Positions 2,011 to 33,234 of a stretch of DNA of 64,000 nt are shown in pieces (position 1 is the first letter of the stretch; every line of letters starts with the position of its first letter). The notes under the pieces were generated by a model, which saw nothing but the letters and a program-made list of their open reading frames with translations, had not been told where the DNA came from and searched no databases. The translations under genes were made by a program, and so were the position numbers. The DNA is taken from positions 682,001 through 746,000 of the forward strand of contig JAGFMI010000009.1 in assembly GCA_021030905.1 (NCBI GenBank), in the 5' to 3' direction. This DNA is from Pyrenula massariospora. Taxonomy: Eukaryota; Ascomycota; Eurotiomycetes; Pyrenulales; Pyrenulaceae.

Positions 2011-2626
2011 TTTGGTTGGTGGATCGCGGTGACCTCGAATGTTGGCAGGGTCGGACTTGCAAAGTCTACATAAGAACAATCAGGCCTAATTTCGACCTTC
2101 AGGGTGAATTCGTCCAAATTGTCAAGAGGAATGTTGCAAAGAACGAGCTCGGAGTTTGCATTGATAATTGACCGATGGTTGTTGATTGTTTTCCATAACG
2201 TGACCGAAAGCGTCGTTGCCTATAGCAACCAAACTTCAAGTGGCGAAGATCTCCGCGCTCTCCATCTCAGCTTTGACTCCCCCACACGTATGATGTCGCG
2301 GGTAAGCGCCTCACCTCAGCCTTGCTCATTGATAGTCAATCACGCCACAGTCATGGAAATCCGGATGCCTTTCGCAAGGCTGCGAAGGTCATTCTCGTGG
2401 CCACAAAAGCTGCTTTTTCACTGCTCGACCACCCACCACGATACTAGCCGTGCTGTCAGCTTCCTTAATCTCGCGAGTTGTTAGCAAAATTGTTCCTCTA
2501 ACCCTTTTATTCCCTACCATCTGTCTGCTACCTTTCTTTTCGTACCATTCTACCTATAACGTCTAGACATATCTTGCTTGCTACGTTAAACATGCTATTC
2601 AAGCGTCCCCTATTCTACCGGTTTCA
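2011..2626. promoter_or_regulatory. Divergent intergenic region, presumed promoters
   Basis: This 616-bp gap lies between two divergent start codons (2010 minus, 2627 plus). A 126-codon plus-strand frame inside it has no recognisable protein character. The 150 bp before 2627 is pyrimidine-rich, typical of fungal transcription start regions. No specific operator was identified. Confidence 0.4.
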
Positions 2627-5230
2627 ATGATGTCGGCCATCAGATTCCTGAAAGGCTTTATCCTACCTATCGCACGCCTCAAATATTTTCTTCGTGCTTC
2701 AGGGTTCGAGCTAATAAACACGCTCTTACGCCCTTGGGCTCCTTATGAACCGCCTATATCTGCTCTGTATCGCTCTCACTGGATTGCTTTGAGCCGCTGT
2801 GTAATTCACATCTTTCTGATCGTTGTCTTTTCTTTCCTTCTATGGGTGAACTACAGAAAGATGTACCTCGGGCCTGGGCTTTCGACACTGCAGTCCGATG
2901 ATTGCATTCTTGCTCTATTTCAAATTGCGGCTAAGGTGTTAGAGCTCATGTCGGTTGGGAGTCTAACAACAATAGTGCTCCATGTGTTGAGGCACTATTT
3001 GATAAGGGAAGGTACATTATTTGGACTTCTAGGCTCAGGAGTGTTCTTCAGCCAAGCTAACTATTTTTGGAGCCTGGAATTTCTTGCAGGTATAATGCAC
3101 CTACGAAAAAGCTGGAGACACTTGATGTTACTTATCACCATCAGCGTGGCTGCAGTGCTTGCTTTGTTCGTTGCCCCAGCAGTAGCAATTCTGCTACAGC
3201 CCCGTGCTCAGAGTGCACCGGCTGGAGGAACAGATTATTTCCTTCCTGCTGCACCTGATCAGATTTGGCCAAGTCTTATTAACGGTTCCGATGAGCTTCA
3301 AGAATGCTTTACGGAAGCTGCATCACAATACCTGATATATCCGAGTGCGGGCTATGAAGATCTTCGTAACTTTTTCAGGAGCTTCAACTACAGATTTCCG
3401 CCTCCACGAATGATGATGGACAGCGAATTCTCCATCAAAGGCATTATAATAGAAGGTGCTGGGGCCAAATTTCCCCGCGTAACAAGTTATGGCACAACCA
3501 GGGGTTTAAACCCAGACACTGTCAAGACTCAGCCAAATGCACTTACAGCAATTTTGCAAGATTCTCTGACTGCGGATTGGCGTGACATATTAAAGGCGTG
3601 GTCAGGAAGCCCGTTAGCTCCAGCTCACCAATACAGGTACTCTGGCCGGTTTATATCAAGGGTGAGGACTACAAGCCCCGTTGTACATGTACGATGCAGT
3701 CCTGCTCAAAATCTTTCTGCGGATCAATATATGGTTGACTTTCCGGTCAAGTCGTGGAGCCCTACACGTGATTTGTCAGATGAGGGGAGCTTTTTGTGGC
3801 AAGAAGCAAAGTCATACAACGCATCGAATTTAAGCGCAAATTTAACCCAAGAACTACAAACGCACTGGACTTCACTCCCTACTGACCGTTTCGGCGCTGT
3901 TAGCGGCGGGGTTATCTTGCAATTTCCATGGGAATCATCGGATCAGTCAAGAGCCGTCATTGGCTGCTCTGTCAGTGCATCATGGATTTCCGGCCACCTC
4001 ATATCAGACACTTTAATAGACACAGCTGCTTGGCACTTTCTAAATTGGCAGGAGTCGACTGATGTCTTGAGCTCTAATAATCACATAAGGAACGACCTAA
4101 ACGCATCTTCGGACGAGGCTGCTCACTACCATCGGCTCATCACTATCCGCAATAGCTGGTTCAAGTCCTTGACGATCGCGCCGCGCTGCGATGAATGTCC
4201 TAGCAAACAGCGTTCGCTCAACGTGCTGCAGCGTATCTTCCACGAAGTTGGCATTTCAACCGCTCTCGACAATCTGCGAGCACAACCTCAGCAACAGTAT
4301 GACAGCTCATCTGATTCATGCGTCTCCGTGCCTCCTCAAAATAGCACACCATCGGTCGATCTCTGGAACACCCCCGGCACCTTCCCCGGAGCCAAGCAAA
4401 ATCTCACAACCGCCTGTAATAACTACGTGAAGAATACCCTCATCGAACTCATTCTCGCCTCCCTGTTCGCTGACGGCCTCTCGCGTCATGGCAGCCGTCA
4501 CGCTTTCGTCCCTGAAACCCTTGGGCCAAACCCTTTCGCTTGGACTCTCCGCACACTTCCCAAATCCCCTACATTCTCCACATCTATGCTCTCCAATAAC
4601 CCTCGCCAAAACCCTATCCTCCTGCCTCCCCCAAACTCCACTTTCCCGACTCTTCGCATGAGCACTTTTGTCTATGGCTATACCTACTCCGCCGACAGGG
4701 TCTCTGACCACCTCGCCGCAGCAGTCCTGGCACTGTACATCGCCGTTGCGAGTCTATACGTGGCCTGGACGATGGTACGGGGCGTGACGAGCAGCGCGTG
4801 GGACACGGTCACGGAGCTCGTCGCGCTCGCGCTGGGGATGGAGGGATGTGGGGCCGGGGTCGAGAGGCTGGGGACCTACAGGAAGATTGTGAGAGTCAGA
4901 GCCGTGAAAGATGAGGAAGAGGCGGCAAAAGGAAATGAGAGGCTTGCGCTTGTGGTGTGCGATGGGGCAGAGGCGCATAGAAATGGCGTATCCGATGGTA
5001 TTCGGTCGACTGCGTTCACAGCTGCTACTGTGGCTGCACCAGATGCAATTTTGCCGACTGTCATGCAACGGAGGGACAATGCATCCGAAGAATTGAAGTT
5101 GACGAGCCTGACGGATACAGTGGGGGCGATGCCGAGCTTGATTCATCGCTATCCCGACTCCGAGGACGTTTTCCGGGGCAAGTCAAAAGTCAAGTATAAA
5201 AAGGTTGAGGTTGGTAAGAAGTATTTGTAA
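2627..5230 (+). CDS. Large fungal multi-pass membrane protein with extracellular domain, function unknown
   Basis: A single exon of 867 codons, starting at tandem ATGs (2627). Hydrophobic segments suggest membrane helices near residues 58-77 (IHIFLIVVFSFLLWV), in the region 90-125, around 170-195 (LMLLITISVAAVLALFVAPA), and near the C-terminus before about residue 725 (LAAAVLALYIAVASLYVAW). Between the third and last helices lies a roughly 500-residue hydrophilic domain with several N-x-S/T sites and paired cysteines, consistent with a glycosylated lumenal or extracellular face. A tail of about 140 residues follows. This architecture (N-terminal helices, long glycosylated ectodomain, one distal helix) is common among uncharacterised Pezizomycotina membrane proteins. 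No catalytic motif was seen. Antisense frames over 4316-5146 are shadows. The function is unknown. Confidence 0.8.
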   Translation: MMSAIRFLKGFILPIARLKYFLRASGFELINTLLRPWAPYEPPISALYRSHWIALSRCVIHIFLIVVFSFLLWVNYRKMYLGPGLSTLQSDDCILALFQIAAKVLELMSVGSLTTIVLHVLRHYLIREGTLFGLLGSGVFFSQANYFWSLEFLAGIMHLRKSWRHLMLLITISVAAVLALFVAPAVAILLQPRAQSAPAGGTDYFLPAAPDQIWPSLINGSDELQECFTEAASQYLIYPSAGYEDLRNFFRSFNYRFPPPRMMMDSEFSIKGIIIEGAGAKFPRVTSYGTTRGLNPDTVKTQPNALTAILQDSLTADWRDILKAWSGSPLAPAHQYRYSGRFISRVRTTSPVVHVRCSPAQNLSADQYMVDFPVKSWSPTRDLSDEGSFLWQEAKSYNASNLSANLTQELQTHWTSLPTDRFGAVSGGVILQFPWESSDQSRAVIGCSVSASWISGHLISDTLIDTAAWHFLNWQESTDVLSSNNHIRNDLNASSDEAAHYHRLITIRNSWFKSLTIAPRCDECPSKQRSLNVLQRIFHEVGISTALDNLRAQPQQQYDSSSDSCVSVPPQNSTPSVDLWNTPGTFPGAKQNLTTACNNYVKNTLIELILASLFADGLSRHGSRHAFVPETLGPNPFAWTLRTLPKSPTFSTSMLSNNPRQNPILLPPPNSTFPTLRMSTFVYGYTYSADRVSDHLAAAVLALYIAVASLYVAWTMVRGVTSSAWDTVTELVALALGMEGCGAGVERLGTYRKIVRVRAVKDEEEAAKGNERLALVVCDGAEAHRNGVSDGIRSTAFTAATVAAPDAILPTVMQRRDNASEELKLTSLTDTVGAMPSLIHRYPDSEDVFRGKSKVKYKKVEVGKKYL

Positions 5231-8506: not shown

Positions 8507-10213
8507 TCATCTAAGCCTTGCAGCTTTGAAACGGCTCACTTTCTCTTGTGGTTCATCCTTCCATACCTTTTCTTCTGCTGGTTCTGTTTCATCTGTAAAC
8601 CCACCTTGACGAGCAATCATTCGATTCCGCAACCTATGGTACTCACCTGCAATTTCCTTTTGGTGAAGGCTGGCGTCCACTTCGTCCATGGTGGGAGGCT
8701 TAGACTTAAGGGTAGACGGCGAACGTTCTACTACCATATTGGATTGTATCTGTTCGGTCAGTGGAGGTGGATTAGCATTGGTTAGGGCTTCCATGTCTTC
8801 GGAGACTTTGTCCGAGGTCAGTCCAGGTTTAGATCGTGTAGCTTTGAACCTTGAAACTTTCTGTGCGGGCCGCTCCGGTAAAACAACATTCGGCGTTGAA
8901 TTACCATCCCCTTCGGACACAGAATCAGAGACAGCGGGCGCAGGCCTTTTCTTGATTGTCTTCAAGGACTTCTGGTTCCTCGAGACTGGTTCCGGATCAG
9001 GTGCAATATCGAGATCCTTTGCGAAGGAAACTTTCTTCGATTTCTTTGACTTTTTGCTATTTGACGAGCTTTCTTCCGGATCTGGCGTAATAGATTGATT
9101 CTTCTGTCTGTTCAACTCAGGCTGAATCTCCTGTGGTAGGCATTTTGGGTTCGGACCAATATTTTGCAGATCGTTCTTATTCAGCTTCCTCTCCAATGCT
9201 AGCATTTCCTGGCGATAGGCTTCAGTGAGCGGACTTTTCAGGTTGCGACCATATTCATCTTCAGCGTCGCTGTCTTCACTGTCATCAAGATTCAAATCCT
9301 CTTCATCCATGAAGTCGTGGATAGACGCGTCGCTGTCATTATCTTGGCCATCTTCTTCTAGTTCGAGCTCTGCCACAATAGCACCAAGTTCACCACGGGA
9401 ATATTCCAGCATATCTTGCCGTAACTCAGCATCCTCTGGCGACTCATCAGAAGGCACCCGGGGAGAAGAATCGTTAGAGCCTGAGCTCAAATTTGCATCA
9501 TCGTCTTTGTGGGCCGCTTCCGGCAATAATGCAGTTTGAGATACGCGCTCAGATCTGAATTCCTGGCCACTCTTTGCAGAGTGCGCCTGAGTCTGTCGCT
9601 TTCCATCAATACCTTGAGACTCGGTTTCATCTTTTGTGGACTTGACAACCCCGTCAGAAATCAGAATATCTTTTACTCCAGCTTTCTGGAGCACCTCTAC
9701 AATATCAGGGGCAGCGCTATCTGCCGCCTTGACGGAACTTGAAAGAACGTTTCCGTTCTCGTCGAGCTCTTCCGTGATTTCAGTTAGGGGAAGCGCAGCC
9801 TCATCCCGATAATCTTCATTTTCAACAAGGAGTAAAGCATTTCGCTTCTGCTGTGCCTCACTAAGCTGCCGTTTGAGTGTGCCTATGTTGCGCGTGACAT
9901 ATTCTAGACGATTTGAAAGCCGATTTACGACTTGCAAGGGGTGTTGTTTTTCATCGCCAATGATAGACTTGATGTCCTTGTCGTCGAGAGATTCGGCACG
10001 AAAGTCCCGCGCGATCGCCAGCATGTCATCTGCAGACGAATCATGTGGAAGTGAGGAGATTTCCTCTCTCAGCCCTTCATACTCAATCTCCCAAGACTGC
10101 CAATGTCGGAGAGCTTTTTTGTAATTTGAAATATTCTCTTCGAGATTCGCTAGTTGGTGATCAATCTTTTTCAAGGCAGAAGAAGCAATCTCAGCAGATT
10201 TCTGGTCCGCCAT
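8507..10213 (-). CDS. URI1: Unconventional prefoldin URI1/BUD27-like protein (DUF3835)
   Basis: A single exon of 568 aa. The frame extends three codons further upstream, but the first true ATG is at 10213 (MADQKSAEIASSALKKID). Residues about 5-130 are heptad-rich coiled coil, as in the prefoldin-alpha fold of URI/Bud27. The middle (about 200-470) is acidic and low-complexity, with D/E runs and basic KKSKKSKK. The C-terminus carries a DUF3835-type segment around the motif GEYHRLRNRMIARQGGF, followed by VSRFKAARL, a phrase that also occurs earlier as KVSRFKATR. In yeast and humans URI binds the RNA polymerase subunit Rpb5, takes part in R2TP/prefoldin-like assembly of RNA polymerases and links TOR signalling to translation. 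The assignment rests on the combination of N-terminal coiled coil and C-terminal DUF3835. It shares a 281-bp divergent promoter with TFB3, a TFIIH subunit. Confidence 0.85.
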   Translation of the reverse strand: MADQKSAEIASSALKKIDHQLANLEENISNYKKALRHWQSWEIEYEGLREEISSLPHDSSADDMLAIARDFRAESLDDKDIKSIIGDEKQHPLQVVNRLSNRLEYVTRNIGTLKRQLSEAQQKRNALLLVENEDYRDEAALPLTEITEELDENGNVLSSSVKAADSAAPDIVEVLQKAGVKDILISDGVVKSTKDETESQGIDGKRQTQAHSAKSGQEFRSERVSQTALLPEAAHKDDDANLSSGSNDSSPRVPSDESPEDAELRQDMLEYSRGELGAIVAELELEEDGQDNDSDASIHDFMDEEDLNLDDSEDSDAEDEYGRNLKSPLTEAYRQEMLALERKLNKNDLQNIGPNPKCLPQEIQPELNRQKNQSITPDPEESSSNSKKSKKSKKVSFAKDLDIAPDPEPVSRNQKSLKTIKKRPAPAVSDSVSEGDGNSTPNVVLPERPAQKVSRFKATRSKPGLTSDKVSEDMEALTNANPPPLTEQIQSNMVVERSPSTLKSKPPTMDEVDASLHQKEIAGEYHRLRNRMIARQGGFTDETEPAEEKVWKDEPQEKVSRFKAARLR

Positions 10214-10494
10214 TGTAGGCAAGAGGTCGCTCCTTTTCTCAATAAGTCAATTTGACACGAAAATTGTATAGTAAAGGTTCACGGAAGATTCAACACTCAT
10301 CATTGTTTATGTGGAAATGCGGAGGACAAACGTAGGCAGTTTCTGCGGAGCATTTTCCCCTCCGATTGGTCAGCCTTGCCACCCAGCCTTTAAATTATGA
10401 TCTCGGTCTCTACACCCTCATTCACAACTTCTCGCCAACTTCTTTGCACAGGCGAGGTAACTTGCCATGGTCCGTGTACAAGAAAGTATTCAAG
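10214..10494. promoter_or_regulatory. Divergent promoter between URI1 and TFB3
   Basis: The two start codons are only 281 bp apart on opposite strands. An inverted CCAAT box (ATTGG) lies at 10365-10369, a site type bound by the fungal HAP/CBF complex. Co-regulation of two RNA-polymerase-II-related genes is possible but is inference. Confidence 0.45.
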
Positions 10495-11684
10495 ATGTCT
10501 GCGGATCGCAATGGGCGGAGAGCGGGCGATACAGACGGTTAGAATGACCAAGCGCCTTTCCATCTACATTTGCCTACGAGACAATCGCTAATCTTGTTGT
10601 TGGATCAGAAATCTGCCCCGTTTGCAAAACCTCAACTTACCTCAACAAGAATCTGAGATTTCTTGTCAATCCACAATGCTACCACCGAATGTGCGAATCC
10701 TGCGTGGACCGTATATTTTCGTCCGGACCTGCACCATGTCCGATCGCAGGCTGCAAGCAAACCCTTAGAAAGGCAAGATTTAGAAAACAAACGTTCGAAG
10801 ACCTGTCGATAGAGAGGGAAGTTGATATACGCAAGAGGGTTATGGCAATGTGAGCAGAGATCTCAATGTTCATAATACCAGTATTTACAACGATCAGTCT
10901 GAATCGTCGAGAGGATGAATTCGAGACGAAGCGGGACTGGGATAATTTTCTGGAGTTTAGGGAACAGATAATTATGGATCTTGTTCTACGAATAGATGTG
11001 GTTAAACGAGAGAATGAGCTCGAGAGATACGCGGCAGCGAATATAGACTCTATTAGGGCCAACGAAGCCTTGGAACGAAAAGAAACCCTCGCATTCAGAC
11101 AGCAGCAGGTATCAGTCGAAGAATCCGCTCGACTGCGGCGCGAGACATTACAGCAAGAAGATGAAGAAGCAAGGAGAGAGAAGAGAATGGAGCAGAACGA
11201 TATTATTAGCAGGCTCGCGTCGGGGAAAACTAGCGTTGATGACATTGTCAGGGAGAATAAGGCCAAACAGAAACCCGGTGCTCAGCGAGGCAAGGGAGGC
11301 AAGGCTCAAGATGTTCCGGCGAAAGAATCTACGGTACCTTTTATCAAGGGCCTTAAGCACAAAGTTGCTCCAGAACCAGAAAAACCCTACGACCCTTTCA
11401 TGGGAATGCGCTTTAAGCGGGACTATTTTAAACTTCTATCGGATTATCCGGCGCAGCGTCTGAACAAATCAAAGAAAGATACAAGAACCTTAGTGGGTGG
11501 TTTTGAATTTTCGACGTATTACGATGAGACCTTGGTCAAGGCTTTCGCCGGCCTTGGGTGTTTCATTGAGGATGAGGTCTCACAGCGACAACAGCCTGTC
11601 TCAAAGGACATAGCAACGGTGGCGGCAACGCAAAGCGGGCTTGATAATTCATCAATGTCGAAAAACCCCAATGACGTGTTCTAG
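10495..11684 (+). CDS. TFB3: TFIIH/CAK assembly subunit Tfb3 (MAT1), RING finger
   Basis: Three exons: 10495-10537, 10609-10849 and 10898-11684, with introns of 71 nt (GTTAGA..CAG, internal CTAAT) and 48 nt (GTGAGC..CAG), encode 356 aa. The second exon contains a C3HC4 RING: C17-x2-C20, C38-x-H40-x2-C43-x2-C46, C58-x4-C63. It is followed by the MAT1 helical region (RKARFRKQTFEDLSIEREVD) and, after intron 2, LNRREDEFETKRDWDNFLEF, which match the Tfb3/MAT1 family closely. A long charged helix and a fungal C-terminal region end with the frame at 11684. Tfb3 bridges the Kin28-Ccl1 kinase module to core TFIIH in transcription initiation and nucleotide excision repair. The start was chosen because ATG 10495 reads in phase through the first donor; the ATG at 10468 is out of frame. 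Confidence 0.93.
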
Positions 11685-14886: not shown

Positions 14887-16743
14887 ATGGACGCATATCA
14901 GCATTTCCGCCGCCTTGTTGTTCCTTGGGCAGTATTTCGAACGAAGACTGCATCTTCAGCATCTATGGAGGCACCCGCTTCTTCTTATCATGACCCGACA
15001 TTGGTAGACAATAGAAGAGCCTCTGTGGCCAATGGCACATTTCCCACGTCCCCACTGCTTCTCCAATTACCTTCCGAGCTCCTCCATCACATCCTCTCTT
15101 TCCTGGCTGCTCCGGATCTTGTACGGATATCCTCAGTCAATCGAACGCTGTACGAGGAGTCTCGCGAAGAAACATTGTGGAAGGAACGTGTTTGCCAAAG
15201 TGTTCCGGACCCACATAGCATATCGGACTGTTTGCCCTTCAAATCCTTCAAAGATCTGTACTTAGCTTACCATCCATTTTGGTTTCTACCGCGGGAGAGG
15301 CTTTGGTATAGCGACACTCCACATACCGGCCAGCTGATTACAGTCCGCTACGATCCTCGTCGGGGCTGCATCGAGGGTTATCAGGTAGTTGCAACTCCAG
15401 GGGCGCGCAGCTTCAATTCTTGGGAGTGGAATCCAGATGTCATCATTCACACGTTTCAACCGCGCGTGAGGCTCTTCTTCGATAGCACTGTACTTAGCCT
15501 GAACCGAGCAGATCAGACGCGAACATGGCCACGGAATTGGCATGATGGAGACGTGCCAATGGTGACAGGAATGGGCCCACATCAGATACTCTCAGAACTT
15601 GTGTTAAGCAAAGAGATACCCAAACACATGGTAGATCCGAGGATGATCCTATGGCCTCCGAAAACAATCCCCTCAAATCACTTCGTCCGAGCTTCCAGCC
15701 GCGAAAACTTCTCCGGAAAAGGCCACCGCCCACAACATCTCAGCGAAGTCTCCGAACATACCTTCCGGCTGCGTAAGAGAGCTCAGTTTCCCATTCGCAC
15801 CCCAATGTTCAGCCTCCTTTATGACGAAGAAACAACAACGTTCTCTTCCATTGACCCCGCACTCTACACTCCAACGAAGCAAAAACCTTGGCAAGGAATC
15901 TGGGTCGGCGACTATGCCGGCCACGGCTGCGAATTTCTCCTCATCATGCAGACCCACACTCCCGCCTCAGCTCCCGATGTGAATCCAAATCATCCCTATC
16001 GACCGTTCAGGTTCCCTGAACATAGCCGCTACTACCAACCCGAAGCGGAGGAATCCATCCGCATCACTCTCGCAAACACCGCAACCGGCCAACCGCCTCC
16101 GCCGGACCCGGAAGGAATATACCAGGGAAGACTGGAAGCCGTCAAACTGACGGGCGACCCCAACGTCCCGAGAGGTGAGCATACGTTTATCGCCGACGAT
16201 CTCGGGCCGGGCGGGTTTATTCGCGTCGCCAACGAGGACATGTTCCAGGGGGCGAGAGTGGTGCGGAGTCGAGGGCACGTTGCCGCCACCAACTTCACTG
16301 ACGGTATGTCTTATAGCCTCTTTCCGTTTATGTCACTCTCTATCTTTTACCACACCTTTTTACTTGGCTTTCGGCTTCACAATCCTAATGACACTTCTTC
16401 CACGATGGATAGACGAGTTCATCCCCGCGCAATTGATCCTCGTCAGCCATGACCGCATCGCCGTGTACTGGGTTCCCTTTGGGCACATCAATTTCTTCGA
16501 GCGGGCCGACGTGGGGGATCTGCTGAAATTCTAGAAAACCTCACACACACGCGCGCGGTTTAGCTGACGCTTGTCAATGTTTTTCTAATCCTATTCTCTG
16601 TTACAGACAAATACTTTGACTGTGAGTTGATTCTGGCTGGCCCGGATAAGCTGGCGCATTATTGGGGTCCACTAGGGAAAGTGACTACGTTTGTGCGGGT
16701 AGATGTGGAGGCGTTGATTAGGCAGGGGAGTGAGGTGCTTTGA
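14887..16743 (+). CDS. F-box protein with two homologous alternative terminal exons
   Basis: Exon 1 (14887-16303) encodes 472 aa plus one base. The F-box lies at residues 59-102 (LQLPSELLHHILSFLAAPDL), the segment that binds Skp1 in SCF ubiquitin ligases. The rest is a conserved fungal substrate-side domain with WQGIWVGDYAGHGCEFLLI near residue 340. The donor GTATGT at 16304 can join either of two acceptors in the same phase: exon A (16413-16534, 39 further aa after the shared Asp) or exon B (16607-16743, 44 further aa). This gives isoforms of 512 or 517 aa. Exon A ends in its own stop, so inclusion of A excludes B from the protein. An internal ATG at 14965 is an alternative start, since the first 26 residues look weakly conserved. 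The ubiquitylation target is unknown. Confidence 0.85.
16607..16743 (+). other. Alternative last coding exon B of the F-box gene
   Basis: The acceptor TTACAG at 16601-16606 follows a pyrimidine-rich tract with CTAAT (about 16585). The exon starts with AC in phase 1, exactly as exon A does. It encodes DKYFDCELILAGPDKLAHYW and then GPLGKVTTFVRVDVEAL, ending in TGA at 16741. Ungapped alignment of the first 40 residues with exon A gives 15 identities, including L-I-L, D, A, Y-W, P, G, F, R, D-V and L. Confidence 0.7.
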
Positions 16744-17291
16744 AAAAGAGGTGCTAGGGAAACGTTTTAATTTAGGAGTATGGAGTAAGCGAGGGTGTAT
16801 ACTCCAAATGTTGTTGATTAAAACGCGGCATTCGAGGGGGGATGCATGTCGTACGCCAATCAAGAGATGGTAGACGGAATTCCCAGGGCATGGGAAATGG
16901 GGATTTAGATAATGTAGTCATCTACAAAACTTCCACTGGGTTGGTGGCTTCAGCCGTCCTCGTTGCATCCTATAGTCCAAGGCCTTGAGGCTAGCGAGCG
17001 CCAGAAGAGTATGCCCCTCGAACGTTGTGGCACGAGAAAAGCCATCAGTGCAAGCATAGCAGACCGCTGTAATGCATTGTGCCAACTATCCAGCGTGTAG
17101 AGATGAGTACAGCGCCGTATTTCCCCATTTCCCGGCGCCAACCCCGATATCACATCCACCAAACGCAGACTTCTCCCCGTTCCCACCACCGCATCCGCCT
17201 CGTTACCTCGTTCTCCCTCCTTAGCCCTCCCAACGCCAACTTCCTATATCTCCCACCAACTCCCCACCCTTAGAGTACATCCACAACCGCC
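16744..17291. other. Convergent intergenic region
   Basis: This 548-bp gap separates the 3' ends of the F-box gene (plus) and the DUF1748 gene (minus). No supported coding sequence was found in it. Confidence 0.35.
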
Positions 17292-17703
17292 TCACCTCCT
17301 CCTCTCAAACCACGAACTACTCCCCATCGCCGCCACACTGTAATCCATCACCGTCTCCCCCAACCCCAGATACATATCAAACCACCCCTTTAACTCCTTG
17401 CTATCAGAAATCTTCTCAGTTTTGATGCTGGGGCTGGGGCGTTAGTTAGCTCGGTGTGACGCGGGGGGCCCGGGCGGGGGGGTGGGTGGGTTAGGGGGGG
17501 AAGGAGGGAACGAAGGAAGGAGGGAACGAAGGAAGGAGGGGAGAAGGCTTACGTCAAGCCGGTGCTGCGCTTGATGCCGGCGAGGCAGGTGGAGATGAGG
17601 ACGGCGTCGACGGCGTAGTGGGCGAGGCGGCCGAGCTGCGAGGGGAGGGGAGGGTTAGGGGGGTGGGGGTTGAGGGAGAGAGGGGGGGAGGGCATACCAC
17701 CAT
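17292..17703 (-). CDS. MIN8: DUF1748 small mitochondrial protein (yeast YPR010C-A/Min8-like)
   Basis: Three exons give a 74-aa protein: 17703-17698 (just ATG GTG), 17635-17553 and 17427-17292. Introns are 62 nt (GTATGC..CAG) and 125 nt (GTAAGC..CAG). The product begins MVLGRLAHYAVDAVLIST, continues CLAGIKRSTGLTIKTEKI and GWFDMYLGLGETVMDYSV, and ends SSSWFERRR, matching the DUF1748 family over its whole length. Yeast Min8 (YPR010C-A) is a small mitochondrial protein linked to cytochrome c oxidase assembly. The middle helix of exon 2 is a probable membrane segment. Every junction restores a family-typical residue, so the model is strong despite the two-codon first exon. Both introns are extremely pyrimidine-rich on the coding strand and G-rich on the plus strand. 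The gene is too fragmented to show up as a long open frame. Confidence 0.9.
17499..17543. repeat. Purine-rich tandem repeat, about 16-nt unit, inside DUF1748 intron 2
   Basis: About 2.7 imperfect copies of the unit GAAGGAAGGAGGGAAC lie in the second intron of the small mitochondrial gene. G-runs just upstream (17463-17498, including GGTGGGTGGGTTAGGGGG) make the plus strand G-quadruplex-prone. Confidence 0.7.
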
Positions 17704-18662
17704 GGCCGCGGGTTTGGATGGTTACTGGGTTTGAGGGTGTTGATGGGTTGGGTCTTGAGGTGGGAGGGAGTGGTTGTGTGTTGTGTTTGATGGGAGGTGG
17801 GGGGGTCGTTCGAGAGTGTGGTTGCTGGGACGATGAGGTGGTTATGTTTGCGAAGGGTCGAGGAGTGATGGGGGAGGTCAGGTTCGAGCTAAAGCTCGAC
17901 GGTGGTAGAAATATTTGGGTGTAATTGTTCCAGAGAATCTTGACTTTACTCTCGACGTTGCCTGTCGTCTTTCACATCGAATGCGGCAAAATCACGCAGC
18001 CTCCGTCGCCCCGTGAGCGCCTTTAGTCTGCTTCCAGAAAGGGCCTAGCCTGCTTTCGGCAAACCCTTCCACTTCTGCCGCGTAAACATTCCCCCACACG
18101 AGCAACAGACCACCGCCCAACTCGGACCCCGAAAAGCGAAAACCCCGCCATCAAAGCTTGGGGAGAGCAAAAGTGCCCGCACCGTGGGAAGCGATTCGCT
18201 AGGAAGCAGCCGATAGCCAGAATTTTGAAGAAGCCGGGGGCTCTGGGCCAACCGTGTGCCCAGCTTGGGAGCTATCTCAACGTGGGGTCTGCGGGCGGAT
18301 CGTTGGGTAGTCTTATTATCTAACGTAGGGGAACGTAGCTTGTAGATAGCTTCGTGGGAAGCTCACTTTCGGGGAGTTTTTACTTTTTTTTACTTTTTCT
18401 ACAACATTCTCTGTCCAGGTTAAACCATACGGATTTCCAAATCCATTGCCCAATCTTGAGACCAATCAACCTGCACAATTCTCGCATTTCTTGCAGAAAC
18501 TCCACTCTTCGGTGAGGCAGAAGCTGCGGCCAAGCTTCAACCCCTCCAAGGTCCGCAGCAGCTAGAGCTCCGGCTCAACCACAACATCTTACACCTAGAT
18601 TTCTCTACACACGACATTCATTACGCTCCTAGAAGTTGCTCACGAAATACTACATTCGCGCC
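17704..18662. promoter_or_regulatory. Divergent region: DUF1748 upstream and pyruvate kinase promoter
   Basis: This 959-bp region lies between divergent starts. Upstream of pyruvate kinase there are two CCAAT boxes (18450-18454 and 18462-18466), preceded by a T-rich stretch at about 18378-18402 and followed by a pyrimidine-rich leader, an arrangement common in strongly expressed fungal glycolytic genes. No gene is supported inside it. Confidence 0.5.
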
Positions 18663-24504: not shown

Positions 24505-25685
24505 TCACGACGAGAATGTTCTACGATTCCGCTCCCTGCGATCTTGGATAAGCAATTCAGTCCTTGTGTAGAGATTGTCCAAATATTCCATGGCCGTGGC
24601 ATCCTTGAGTATTTTGGAAACCTGGGTGCCAGCAGAAATAAGCTGTAAAATGTTTCGGTCATCCTTGAGCGGCCTGCTCTGATGCTTCGCAGCGTGTCGC
24701 ATCTCTAGCGAATTCTCCAGGACGGTTACTAGTTGCTTGATCTGGTTGTTGTAAAGAACTCTAGCCGGAATCCTGCGCTTGGTGGCCAAACGCTTCAGGA
24801 GATATACCCACTCGGTCCATTCTCGATCTGCAGGAGTGCGGACTTGACGCTTGTCTGGTTCAATAGGAATAGGAAATTGATACTTGGCAACGAAATCGAA
24901 CGCGCATTTAGACAGAATATCATTGACTGTGGCAAGAACTTCATCTTGTTCTTGTACGTCTAGGTTGGTTGGCAGATGGAGCAATTCCCGCTCCTGGGCT
25001 GCAATTGTCCTTGGTGAAGGAGGCTGTAGTAACTGATGTGGGCCATCAAATTCATCTCGGTTGGATGGCTTTCTCTGGGAGTGATATCTCACCCCAGTCT
25101 GTGCTCTATCAGGTCCTCGGCGAGCTGAAGATTCTATTACAAAATCCGAAGATCCAGGAATTGGAGAGTCCGGCTCTCCCATATGGTAATCTCTGGATGT
25201 ATTGGGCGCATACTCCCAATCTCCGTGGGGTGGATATGGCATCCGAGCATTTCCTGGAGCCGGTCCATAGCTCTGTGGAAAGGTGGATGCGGCACGAGAC
25301 GAGTAGTCAGAAGTGATCGGCTGGCCGACAGACTGGGGGAAAGTGTTTGGAAAATCGCGGGAAGGCGGCCCTTCACGAGCATGCTGAGACGGATGGCGGC
25401 CAATGGATGGAACTTGAGAACCATAGAACTGGCTCTGGCCAGGTAGGCTACATATTGTCAGTGTTGTGTCACCAGAGGAAACGGAGGGGGAAAATAAAGA
25501 TTGTCCTGACCTCATTTCTGATCGAAATGGGTCGAAAGGGGTGGTTTGAGGATCGTGGCTCATCGCCGCAGAGCTAAAGCGGACACCAAAATCAGCCGTG
25601 AACGATCACGCAGCCTACTTACTCACCTCCTGGATAATAATGACTGGGTGATGCTGGCAGACGTTGGATATGCTGAGCCTTCCAT
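24505..25685 (-). CDS. Uncharacterised fungal protein with conserved helical C-terminal domain
   Basis: The main exon (25573-24505) contains an ATG at 25563 that gives 352 aa. An upstream exon (25685-25627, starting MEGSAYPTSASITQS) joins in phase across a 53-nt intron (GTGAGT..TAG), giving 375 aa. The N-terminal half is disordered, rich in S, P, G, Q and Y. From about residue 205 (NLDVQEQDEVLATVNDILSK) to the end it is helical and charged: EWTEWVYLLKRLATKRRIPA, QIKQLVTVLENSLEMRHAAK and MEYLDNLYTRTELLIQDRRE. This looks like a conserved domain, but I cannot name it. A 63-nt in-frame stretch (25510-25448) has intron-like ends (GTCAGG..TAG) and no stop, so it may be spliced or retained. The function is unknown. 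Confidence 0.7.
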
Positions 25686-30395: not shown

Positions 30396-32084
30396 TCAAA
30401 CAAAACACTCCCCCCACAACCCCCCCATCCTCGCAAACCCCAACCCCTCCACAAACCTCTCCAACCCGCACCGTCCATACCGATCCCCCCCGCAGAACTC
30501 AAGATCAATCACCCGATCATTCACGAGCACGCGCACCATCTCCCCCCCTCCCGCCGCCGCGTCGTCACCGCCGCAGGTCATCTTCTCCACATACGCCCGC
30601 GCCGCAAACGGCACCGACCACGCCGCCGAATACCCCGCGTCGCGCGGGCTCACGGGCATCGTGCTCGGCAGCGGCGGAGTCGAGTTGTATAAGCCTAAGG
30701 CGGCGAAAATGGCCGTCATGTCGTTGTCGTGGCTAAAGTCCGCATACAGCCCGCGTCCCAGCGGGAACGTGTCTGGGTCGCCGTCCAGCGTAGCATTCGT
30801 GCTCGTGTGGTCCTGTACCGGGGAGTTTGTGAGACGGGCGATCAGCTCGTTGACGAAGCCGACGCCCTGGGTTGGGCCGAGGGGGTTCCCGGGGCCGTAG
30901 GAGTAGTACTTGCCGAGGGATTGGTAGTAATCGTACTCTATCCATTCAGTAGGCGTAAAGAGGGGGCAGAAGGGGGAGAGGTAGCCGGCTGTGGCGGCGG
31001 GGGAGGCAACGACGGAGAAGGGGCAGAGGTCCATCAGGTTCAAGACGTCGGTGGTGGTGAGGGTGGCGGCGGGGAGGGACTGGTCGAGGCGGTCGAGGAT
31101 CGGGGGGAGGAAGATGGCGGCGAATTGGGCTTGGGGTTCGTTCGGGGGCCCGTTTTCGAAGGCGGTGCAGAGGGAGTGGGACAGGGTGTTGTTAGTGGAG
31201 TCGTCTTCGGCGATGATCACGTCGATTCCTGGGGTGGTGGAGTTGGGGGAGGAGGATGGGTCGGAGGCTTTGGCGTGGCCGAAGCCAAGGGCGAAGCGGG
31301 CCGCGGATTGGACGACGCGGTCTTCACCTGAGGAGCGGATGAATGGGGTTGTGCTGCGGGTTAGGGAGGGGTATAAGGAGTAGAATTTCTCGCCGGATTC
31401 GAACATTTCCTGCTCACCGAAGGCGGTGAGGTCATCCGCTCCGAGAGAGTACGTGTAATTTGTAAGGAAACCGAAGTCGTCTTTCAAGGAAGAAGGCGGG
31501 ACGGCGGACTGAATCTTGGCGATGGTCTTGTTGTACGCGGAGGATTTATCGGGGGTGGGGAAGCGCGCGCCATGTCGAGAAAGGACCTGGACGAAATTGA
31601 TATCGCAAGATTGGGGAAGTTTCGGGACGAGCACGGCGGATTCAGAGACGCTGAAGTAGGGGGAATACTGTCCCCAGGTGTGGCTGAGTGGAGTGTTGCA
31701 TTGGTAGCCCTTTGATATGGAGTTGCATGTTGAGTTGGAGTTTGTGGTTGTGGACGAGGAACTAAGCGGTGTGATTAACATATGATAGAATGCTTGATGA
31801 AAGAGAAATGGATTCTTGACGTACAGAGAAATCAGGGTCGCCGCTGTAACAAAAAGCGCGATTGCACCCATTCCGGCCACGAACCAACGACTCTTAAACG
31901 GTCTCTGCTTCTGATATTTCGCCTTCTTTCCGGATCTAGGATCTAAGGACCCCTCCTCAGAGTTCAAGAGAGCCTCTTCATCCCCCATACCATCATTAAA
32001 TACATCTTTCATTCTAGATCGCGAAGATCCAAACCAAGATGCGCCGGCATCATCATCCCGATCAAAGTCCTCCACGTGCAGCAC
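30396..32084 (-). CDS. Membrane-anchored histidine acid phosphatase (phytase family)
   Basis: The open frame has 562 codons, but its first ATG is at 32012 (MKDVFNDGMGDEEALL). The frame is open without ATG from there past 32084 (reading RFFPVKLAAASQHRRRVLHV upstream), so the true start is probably in a missed upstream exon. A single hydrophobic segment at about residues 67-88 (numbered from 32084) follows a charged cytoplasmic stretch, predicting a type II membrane anchor. The catalytic RHGARFPT (about 170-177) and the proton-donor HD (SHDNDM, about 452-453) of the histidine acid phosphatase family are intact. KGYQCNTPLSHTWGQYSPYF is typical of fungal 3-phytases. Multiple N-glycosylation sites and cysteines fit an extracellular catalytic domain. 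The expected reaction is release of phosphate from phytate or other phosphomonoesters. Confidence 0.88.
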   Translation of the reverse strand: MLHVEDFDRDDDAGASWFGSSRSRMKDVFNDGMGDEEALLNSEEGSLDPRSGKKAKYQKQRPFKSRWFVAGMGAIALFVTAATLISLYVKNPFLFHQAFYHMLITPLSSSSTTTNSNSTCNSISKGYQCNTPLSHTWGQYSPYFSVSESAVLVPKLPQSCDINFVQVLSRHGARFPTPDKSSAYNKTIAKIQSAVPPSSLKDDFGFLTNYTYSLGADDLTAFGEQEMFESGEKFYSLYPSLTRSTTPFIRSSGEDRVVQSAARFALGFGHAKASDPSSSPNSTTPGIDVIIAEDDSTNNTLSHSLCTAFENGPPNEPQAQFAAIFLPPILDRLDQSLPAATLTTTDVLNLMDLCPFSVVASPAATAGYLSPFCPLFTPTEWIEYDYYQSLGKYYSYGPGNPLGPTQGVGFVNELIARLTNSPVQDHTSTNATLDGDPDTFPLGRGLYADFSHDNDMTAIFAALGLYNSTPPLPSTMPVSPRDAGYSAAWSVPFAARAYVEKMTCGGDDAAAGGGEMVRVLVNDRVIDLEFCGGDRYGRCGLERFVEGLGFARMGGLWGECFV

Positions 32085-33234
32085 GCGGCGACGGTGTTGG
32101 CTGGCTGCCGCCAGCTTGACAGGGAAGAATCTGCTGTCTCGTCAAGAGATCGGCAAAGGTGGAGAAATATGCAAGTCAGAAATGCATGTCCTTCTCCGGT
32201 AGAAGGACATCATCCTGCTTGTGGAAGGTGAGGTAGTGGATCTTGGTAGGGGATGCATGCTCAAAAACCAGCAGTAGCAGCCAGGCTAGTCGTAGATTTC
32301 CTTGGAATGCGTGTCTGAGGGAGGGTCACACATGGTGGCACGTCGAGATGAATTGCGGGGTATGGCACACGCGCCTTTTAACGATGTTCCCGAGCCGTCG
32401 TTTGCGCCCCTTCACAGGCGGTAGAAGAATTATCGGGGTGGCCTGGATGAACGGTAAATCAACTCCTTGGAAGATTAGGTGGATACATCTGTGATGGCCT
32501 CTTTTTACTAATGTTCATCAGGGCCATGTGTCAGCGCCACGTGGAGATCACCATTCGAGCTACGCGGTTACCTGCCTTTGCATGAAGCCAGTCCACTCCT
32601 TGCATGGGCTTTATTTTGACGGGTTGAGTACCTCAAGGCAACACACTGTACAAGTCAGAAATCATGGAAGATTGAATGACCAAGAAAACTTTCAATTACG
32701 CTGATATCTATGTAAAATGAAACAATGTTGTCAAACAAACCACCCCACAAGCGCCTCTCGCTAGGATGACCCTGTCTGTTTGCAGAGACATGGCTGGATA
32801 ATAGTACAAGCGGTTGTGCGGCCGTTTACTTCAGCCAGAAATGACAACCTGATATCTAGTCCTGCCTTGAGGCCGTTTCAGACTTAGTACCCGCGAACAA
32901 ATCGGCCGTTATCACGTTAGCTGCTGGGGCTGTATCACCCAGTGAGGGAAAACACAAGCAAACAACACGCCAACCAACCCAAGGGGTATATCTTGCTTTT
33001 GAAGGGAATTGTGCAAGCGAAAGTGTTGAATAATGTCGACGCCCGCTGGAACGCATGCAAACCAAACCGGCCGACATGTATACCGCCGACAAAAAAGGAA
33101 ATCGATTGCAAATTATAGAGATTGTACGGTATGTCGCAGCAAACTCCCCCTCCTAAAATATTTTCTCAAATCACGCGTAGTATTGGTAGGTTTACTTTTC
33201 AGAGCCTAGAGGCTTGGTATCTGTATGTCATTGA
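32085..33234. other. Intergenic region upstream of phytase, downstream of bZIP gene
   Basis: This 1.15-kb stretch likely contains the unresolved 5' exon and promoter of the phosphatase gene and the 3' region of the bZIP gene. The frame is open from 32085 back to about 32140 before a TGA. No other gene is supported. Confidence 0.35.

Follow-up and report, generated by a model that had tools for sequence, protein, structure and literature searches.

The window analysed here, a 64,000-nucleotide stretch of Pyrenula massariospora contig JAGFMI010000009.1 (positions 682,001 to 746,000, forward strand), contains a plus-strand gene whose long first exon encodes an F-box and most of a Cyclin_D1_bind domain (PF12014). 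Behind this exon a single donor (16304) faces two acceptors (16412 and 16606), which open two downstream exons of equal phase, termed here exon A and exon B (Table 1). The gene is flanked upstream by a protein kinase (PF00069; 12374-14407, plus strand) and downstream by a pyruvate kinase (PF00224 and PF02887; 19122-20423, plus strand), while an exon of the Mitofissin family (PF08520, columns 1-28 of 69; 17549-17971) lies on the opposite strand and converges on it. The window also holds a Prefoldin_3/DUF3835 protein (8510-10246, minus strand), a MAT1-like CDK-activating kinase factor (10854-11684, plus strand) and a branch 2 histidine phosphatase (30399-32141, minus strand). Gene content and intron style suggest a filamentous ascomycete. 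Two long open frames, one of 887 aa (2567-5227) and one of 366 aa (24508-25605, minus strand), gave no Pfam match at E 0.001.

Table 1. Features of the F-box gene and its two candidate 3' ends (positions in the window).
Feature	Positions	Strand	Basis or detail
Exon 1, FBXO31-like F-box gene	14887..16303	+	472 codons plus one base; open frame, Pfam matches
F-box, PF00646 / PF12937, residues 58-98	15058..15180	+	PF00646 1.3e-7, PF12937 3.8e-10
Cyclin_D1_bind (PF12014) columns 1-120, exon 1 part	15841..16303	+	Pfam; genome search 93.6 bits
Pocket motif KLTGDPNVPRGEHT	16144..16185	+	phmmer alignment to 5vzt_B; stretch of 6.6 bits, alone not significant
Shared 5' splice site GTATGT	16304..16309	+	Sequence; 16000-16800 has two GTRNGT sites, this one included
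Acceptor region of exon A: branch-point-like CTAAT (16385-16389), TAG (16410-16412)	16385..16412	+	Sequence
Terminal exon A	16413..16534	+	Stop TAG 16532-16534; PF12014 columns 121-153
Acceptor region of exon B: branch-point-like CTAAT (16585-16589), tract rich in pyrimidines, CAG (16604-16606)	16585..16606	+	Sequence
Terminal exon B	16607..16743	+	Stop TGA 16741-16743; PF12014 columns 121-154

Exon 1, in which a further in-frame ATG lies at 14965, closes with ...ACT GAC|G immediately before the donor, and because exons A and B both begin with AC, the same Asp codon (G|AC) is completed in each. The resulting terminal peptides are DEFIPAQLILVSHDRIAVYWVPFGHINFFERADVGDLLKF for exon A and DKYFDCELILAGPDKLAHYWGPLGKVTTFVRVDVEALIRQGSEVL for exon B, behind introns of 109 and 303 nt, respectively. 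The original prediction had described this layout of one donor, two acceptors, a common phase, a common Asp codon and separate stops, and all of it can be read directly from the DNA. Each of the two exons starts exactly on a CTRAY...YAG acceptor module. Such modules number 60 on the plus strand of the 64 kb (0.00094 per base), and no branch-point-plus-YAG module other than those of exons A and B was found in 16318-16900. The pyrimidine fraction upstream of the acceptor was 0.75 for exon B versus 0.55 for exon A. From the start of exon A to exon B, where the GT sites of 16400-16600 were inspected, there was no GTRNGT donor, and the 72 nt that separate the stop of exon A from exon B showed no evident poly(A) signal by eye. 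Fifteen nucleotides inside exon B there is a perfect donor-like GTGAGT (16622-16627), with no acceptor module downstream of it up to 16900; it is probably just coding sequence, and it could bind U1 and affect the choice of exon B.

With respect to the identity of the gene, both F-box profiles scored above their curated cut-offs (PF12937, 39.8 bits against 24.3; PF00646, 31.7 bits against 20.5), which bears out its earlier naming as an F-box gene, and its product is a predicted SCF F-box substrate receptor. PF12014 extends from residue 319 to near the end of the protein in both spliced forms, and the predicted isoforms A and B matched it at 4.5e-38 (131.6 bits) and 2.8e-34 (119.3 bits), respectively, with a cut-off of 22. 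When the terminal peptides were compared with the profile alone, exon A matched columns 121-153 (E 1e-7, 32.9 bits) and exon B columns 121-154 (E 8.5e-4, 20.2 bits, below the cut-off of 22). A genome-wide search with PF12014 (37.8 Mb, 33 contigs, E up to 10) listed three matches, all of them in this gene, such profile-search counts being lower bounds for large families; besides the exon 1 part, these were exon A (columns 121-153, 28.6 bits) and exon B on its own (columns 120-154, 16.0 bits, E 0.168). Since exon 1 ends at column 120 and exons A and B resume at columns 121 and 120, the intron falls at an equal position of the domain for both, and judged by these columns each exon is a predicted complete substitute for the end of the domain. 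The claim of two homologous exons at the 3' end of the gene was upheld, and by these matches each of them completes PF12014.

We considered whether exon B might belong to a second gene or be the tail of a neighbouring paralogue, and this was ruled out. Its open frame (16564-16743, 59 codons) contains no ATG, which makes a gene of its own very unlikely, and the genome-wide search reported PF12014 matches only here. In a protein search with isoform B, no further full-length relative was detected, the two weak matches (E 0.11 and 1.87) being to the F-box end. A misjoining of the tails of two paralogous genes during assembly is very improbable: nothing was found that speaks for it, no second PF12014 gene was reported by the genome search, and exons A and B appear too different to be alleles.

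The relationship between the two terminal exons was clear at the protein level. In an ungapped alignment over 40 positions the A and B peptides are identical at 15 and positive at 23, which gives a BLOSUM62 score of 80; the BLASTP E value of the pair was 1e-10. When the first 40 residues of B were shuffled 100,000 times, the score never rose above 25, and when A was compared with all 127,762 six-frame positions of the window, B matched it best apart from A itself, with the runner-up at 22. The homology of the exons and the 15 identities in 40 positions put forward in the original prediction were confirmed by these results. We also scanned both strands of the window for pairs of YAG sites, 99-1000 bases apart, that are each followed by an open 33-aa stretch in the same phase. 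With any YAG allowed (28,643 pairs), A-B was the top pair with a score of 73 and the second scored 35; with branch-point-plus-YAG modules (47 pairs), A-B was again at the top with 73 and the second scored -5. In the DNA upstream of the two acceptors any similarity was unclear (7 of 20, 11 of 40 and 18 of 72 positions identical), and a search for direct repeats returned four families, none of which linked A with B. This lack of an intron-duplication remnant in the DNA suggests that the duplication is old or fast-evolving. As far as the sequence goes, the locus has the layout of a tandem duplicated exon substitution event, namely adjacent homologous exons of equal phase with candidate splice signals.

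To what extent exon B has been selected as a protein was assessed from the pattern of the differences. Identity between A and B at codon positions 1, 2 and 3 was 24/40, 24/40 and 14/40. We then placed the observed A-B changes at random on A in 20,000 trials, keeping the counts per codon position, and the observed 80 was never reached (the trials averaged 29.7 with a maximum of 76, and 23% remained open). When codon position was ignored, again none of 20,000 trials did so (mean 11.6, maximum 67; 26% open). With codon position kept, at least 15 identities occurred in 5.5% and at least 23 positives in 0.44% of trials; with it ignored, the figures were 0.35% and 0.04%. The signal of constraint is conservative replacement, not the count of identities. 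Because no trial attained the score of B, exon B has probably been selected as a protein for a long time, under a null in which the changes fall on B. The test presumes that exon B took most of the first- and second-position changes and is weaker if A took 30% or more: with 90, 80, 70, 60 and 50% of these changes placed on a neutral exon B, an open frame with a score of at least 80 was obtained in 0.4, 2.2, 18, 32 and 47% of cases. Similarly, the joint chance for a neutral B was 0.035, 3.9, 20 and 60% at 0.75, 0.5, 0.38 and 0.2 substitutions per site, where 0.75 on B is half of the third-position distance of 1.51.

Codon usage did not set exon B apart from noncoding sequence, which counts against B. 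Its codon usage was matched or exceeded by 48% of 13,698 uncovered open windows, that of exon A by just 2.7% of noncoding windows. Synonymous bias was -0.09 for exon B, +0.11 for exon A and +0.04 for exon 1, which is itself weak, and 13% of windows inside long ORFs scored as low in codon usage as exon B. These statistics bear on a reading in which A is the sole working last exon and B, once functional, is now a dead duplicate in the 3' UTR. This reading is unlikely, but it draws on a better fit of exon A to the family (32.9 versus 20.2 bits), an exon A intron of normal fungal length, codon usage of B that is indistinguishable from noncoding sequence, and the fact that an open frame would survive a recent death of B; indeed, such a recent death is compatible with both the constraint and the codon statistics. 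Against it, B has kept an open frame, a phase-matched acceptor, a branch point, a pyrimidine tract and conservative substitutions, and while the point estimate of divergence makes a long-neutral B improbable, its low end does not. We estimate the chance that exon B is in use today, as predicted from these features, at about two in three. Pattern searches for relatives in collections not meant to hold fungi gave no match in viral contigs, and 47 matches in prokaryote genome contigs, none of which was a relative; given these collections, the result carries no weight on either side.

Human FBXO31 marks damaged proteins for destruction. In phmmer searches of solved structures its chain (5VZT) was the top match of isoform A, at a weak E of 0.0085, and the third match of isoform B (E 0.047), after two SKP2-type F-box chains; for neither isoform was any individual stretch of the alignment to 5VZT significant. 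Within the stretch that covers the motif in Table 1, 21 residues of FBXO31 (rleavkltgdpnvprgehtfi) are aligned at 6.6 bits. PF12014 is the domain of FBXO31, described as a reader of C-terminal amides, for which D334, I337 and T343 matter according to excerpts of the FBXO31 study (PMC11821526). In this weak alignment they correspond to D424, V427 and T433 of the fungal protein, with D and T identical and I replaced by V; the FBXO31 residue numbers assume that the chain index is shifted by +51, as these three letters suggest, and the pocket residue Y309 lies outside the aligned stretch. All of the aligned pocket residues are encoded by exon 1 and are common to both isoforms. In isoform A, residues 449-503, which span the exon junction, align with FBXO31 chain positions 405-461 at 0.8 bits, and this faint alignment, together with the Pfam columns, suggests that the swapped exon is the final part of the substrate domain, presumably the part that closes the beta-barrel of the FBXO31 domain. 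The fungal gene thus resembles human FBXO31 in combining an F-box with Cyclin_D1_bind and, in that weak alignment, in keeping D334 and T343 with I337 changed to V. Similarity in sequence is weak, and alternative homologous last exons like those of the fungal gene are not mentioned in the excerpted FBXO31 text (PMC11821526).

A degenerate pattern of the pocket motif was also run against the same viral and prokaryote collections, and it matched four loci in viral contigs (L017-L020) and none in prokaryote contigs, none of the four being F-box-like. By open-frame reading three of them encode radical-SAM-like proteins, two of which are letter-identical, and one an unrelated protein; we take these matches to be chance. 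The near-identical radical-SAM-like proteins, read from the frames of L017, L018 and L019, carry KLTGDPNVPLG, which matches the FBXO31 pocket motif.

Based on the anatomy, homology and domain matches, we favour, with a probability of roughly 0.7, a single SCF receptor of the FBXO31 kind with a tandem-duplicated last exon, spliced to A or to B. In such a gene, the last exon would have been duplicated in tandem long ago. From the donor at 16304 the spliceosome would then splice to the proximal acceptor, giving exon A behind an intron of 109 nt, or to the distal acceptor, giving exon B behind an intron of 303 nt within which exon A is removed. Each product would combine an F-box with a complete substrate domain and end in ~35 residues that come in one of two homologous versions. 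Since the pocket residues lie in the shared exon 1, both isoforms are expected to recognize one kind of C-terminal degron, and they may differ in the closing part of the domain, through its surface, its stability or its preference for partners or substrates. Exclusion needs no special mechanism, because exon A ends in a stop and is followed by no GTRNGT donor before B. Furthermore, with 72 nt between the stop of A and exon B and no evident poly(A) signal in them, mRNAs ending in exon A probably carry B in their 3' UTR. The arrangement may best be described as a terminal exon duplicated in tandem, with two 3' splice sites that compete for a single donor.

In this competition the proximal acceptor has the shorter intron and the distal acceptor the better pyrimidine tract. 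Fungi splice mainly by intron definition, according to the cited excerpts (PMC2397502), and an intron of 303 nt is long for them, which favours exon A. We also weighed a reading in which B normally serves as last exon, or is the sole one in some relatives, and A is a minor or newer copy. The B acceptor does look stronger (CAG with a pyrimidine fraction of 0.75, versus TAG with 0.55), but exon A is nearer the Pfam consensus, its acceptor is the first from the donor and gives the shorter intron, and coding-like codon usage is seen in exon A alone, which makes this reading quite improbable. An RNA structure that selects between the acceptors was tried and rejected: the 331 nt of 16290-16620 gave a z of 0.95, with 81 of 100 shuffles folding at least as well, and a pairing predicted to join the donor with the B acceptor was dropped because the folding is unremarkable compared with shuffles.

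The favoured reading, one receptor with two homologous last exons, has its closest parallel in animals, where tandem duplicated exon substitutions likewise involve adjacent homologous exons and proteins identical save for one homologous region (PMC9741552, from excerpts). In the excerpted text of that work 77 of 236 human events swap C-terminal regions, which are over-represented, and homologous exon swapping is portrayed as rare, mostly ancient and an important way of tuning animal proteins; the events are compared for human, fly and worm, and fungi are unmentioned there (PMC9741552). The fungal case differs from the animal events in that exclusion follows simply from the stop of exon A without a consensus donor behind it, and in that the splicing of both copies is predicted from the sequence. 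Among Ascomycota, SKI7/HBS1 is similar in that a single donor is joined to either of two alternative 3' splice sites, which gives two functionally distinct proteins according to the passages cited (PMC3597508). There, however, the longer form has an extra segment (PMC3597508, same passages), whereas the ends of the F-box gene are homologous replacements, and the terms 'duplicated exon', 'exon duplication' and 'mutually exclusive' are absent from the text of that paper (PMC3597508).

Homologous alternative last exons had been called uncommon in filamentous fungi, and this fits homologous alternative exons rather than alternative last exons as such. A survey of fungi pathogenic to humans, as excerpted, puts mutually exclusive exons at under 0.2% and finds alternative last exons to be common (PMC6176087). 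A Verticillium dahliae study, as excerpted, looked for alternative last exons (3pMXE) as one of its event classes, and the same passages are silent on homologous ones (PMC5294800); since this class is counted there, alternative last exons are not new in fungi. Searches of the open-licence PMC literature listed no title or abstract start on tandem homologous last exons in a fungus.

The gene would offer a compact system, with one donor and two acceptors in about 440 nt, in which exclusive choice under intron definition can be studied, and it may allow a test of whether client choice depends on the end of the FBXO31 domain. The putative second C-terminus is also an example of what open-frame annotation can miss. 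The fungus may swap the barrel-closing end of its sole FBXO31-like reader of damaged C-termini by a choice between the two homologous last exons, a suggestion that is doubtful. Were such a switch real, it would be a fungal tandem-exon substitution of the animal kind, and it would give one ligase two client ranges or regulatory states, perhaps governed by oxidative stress.
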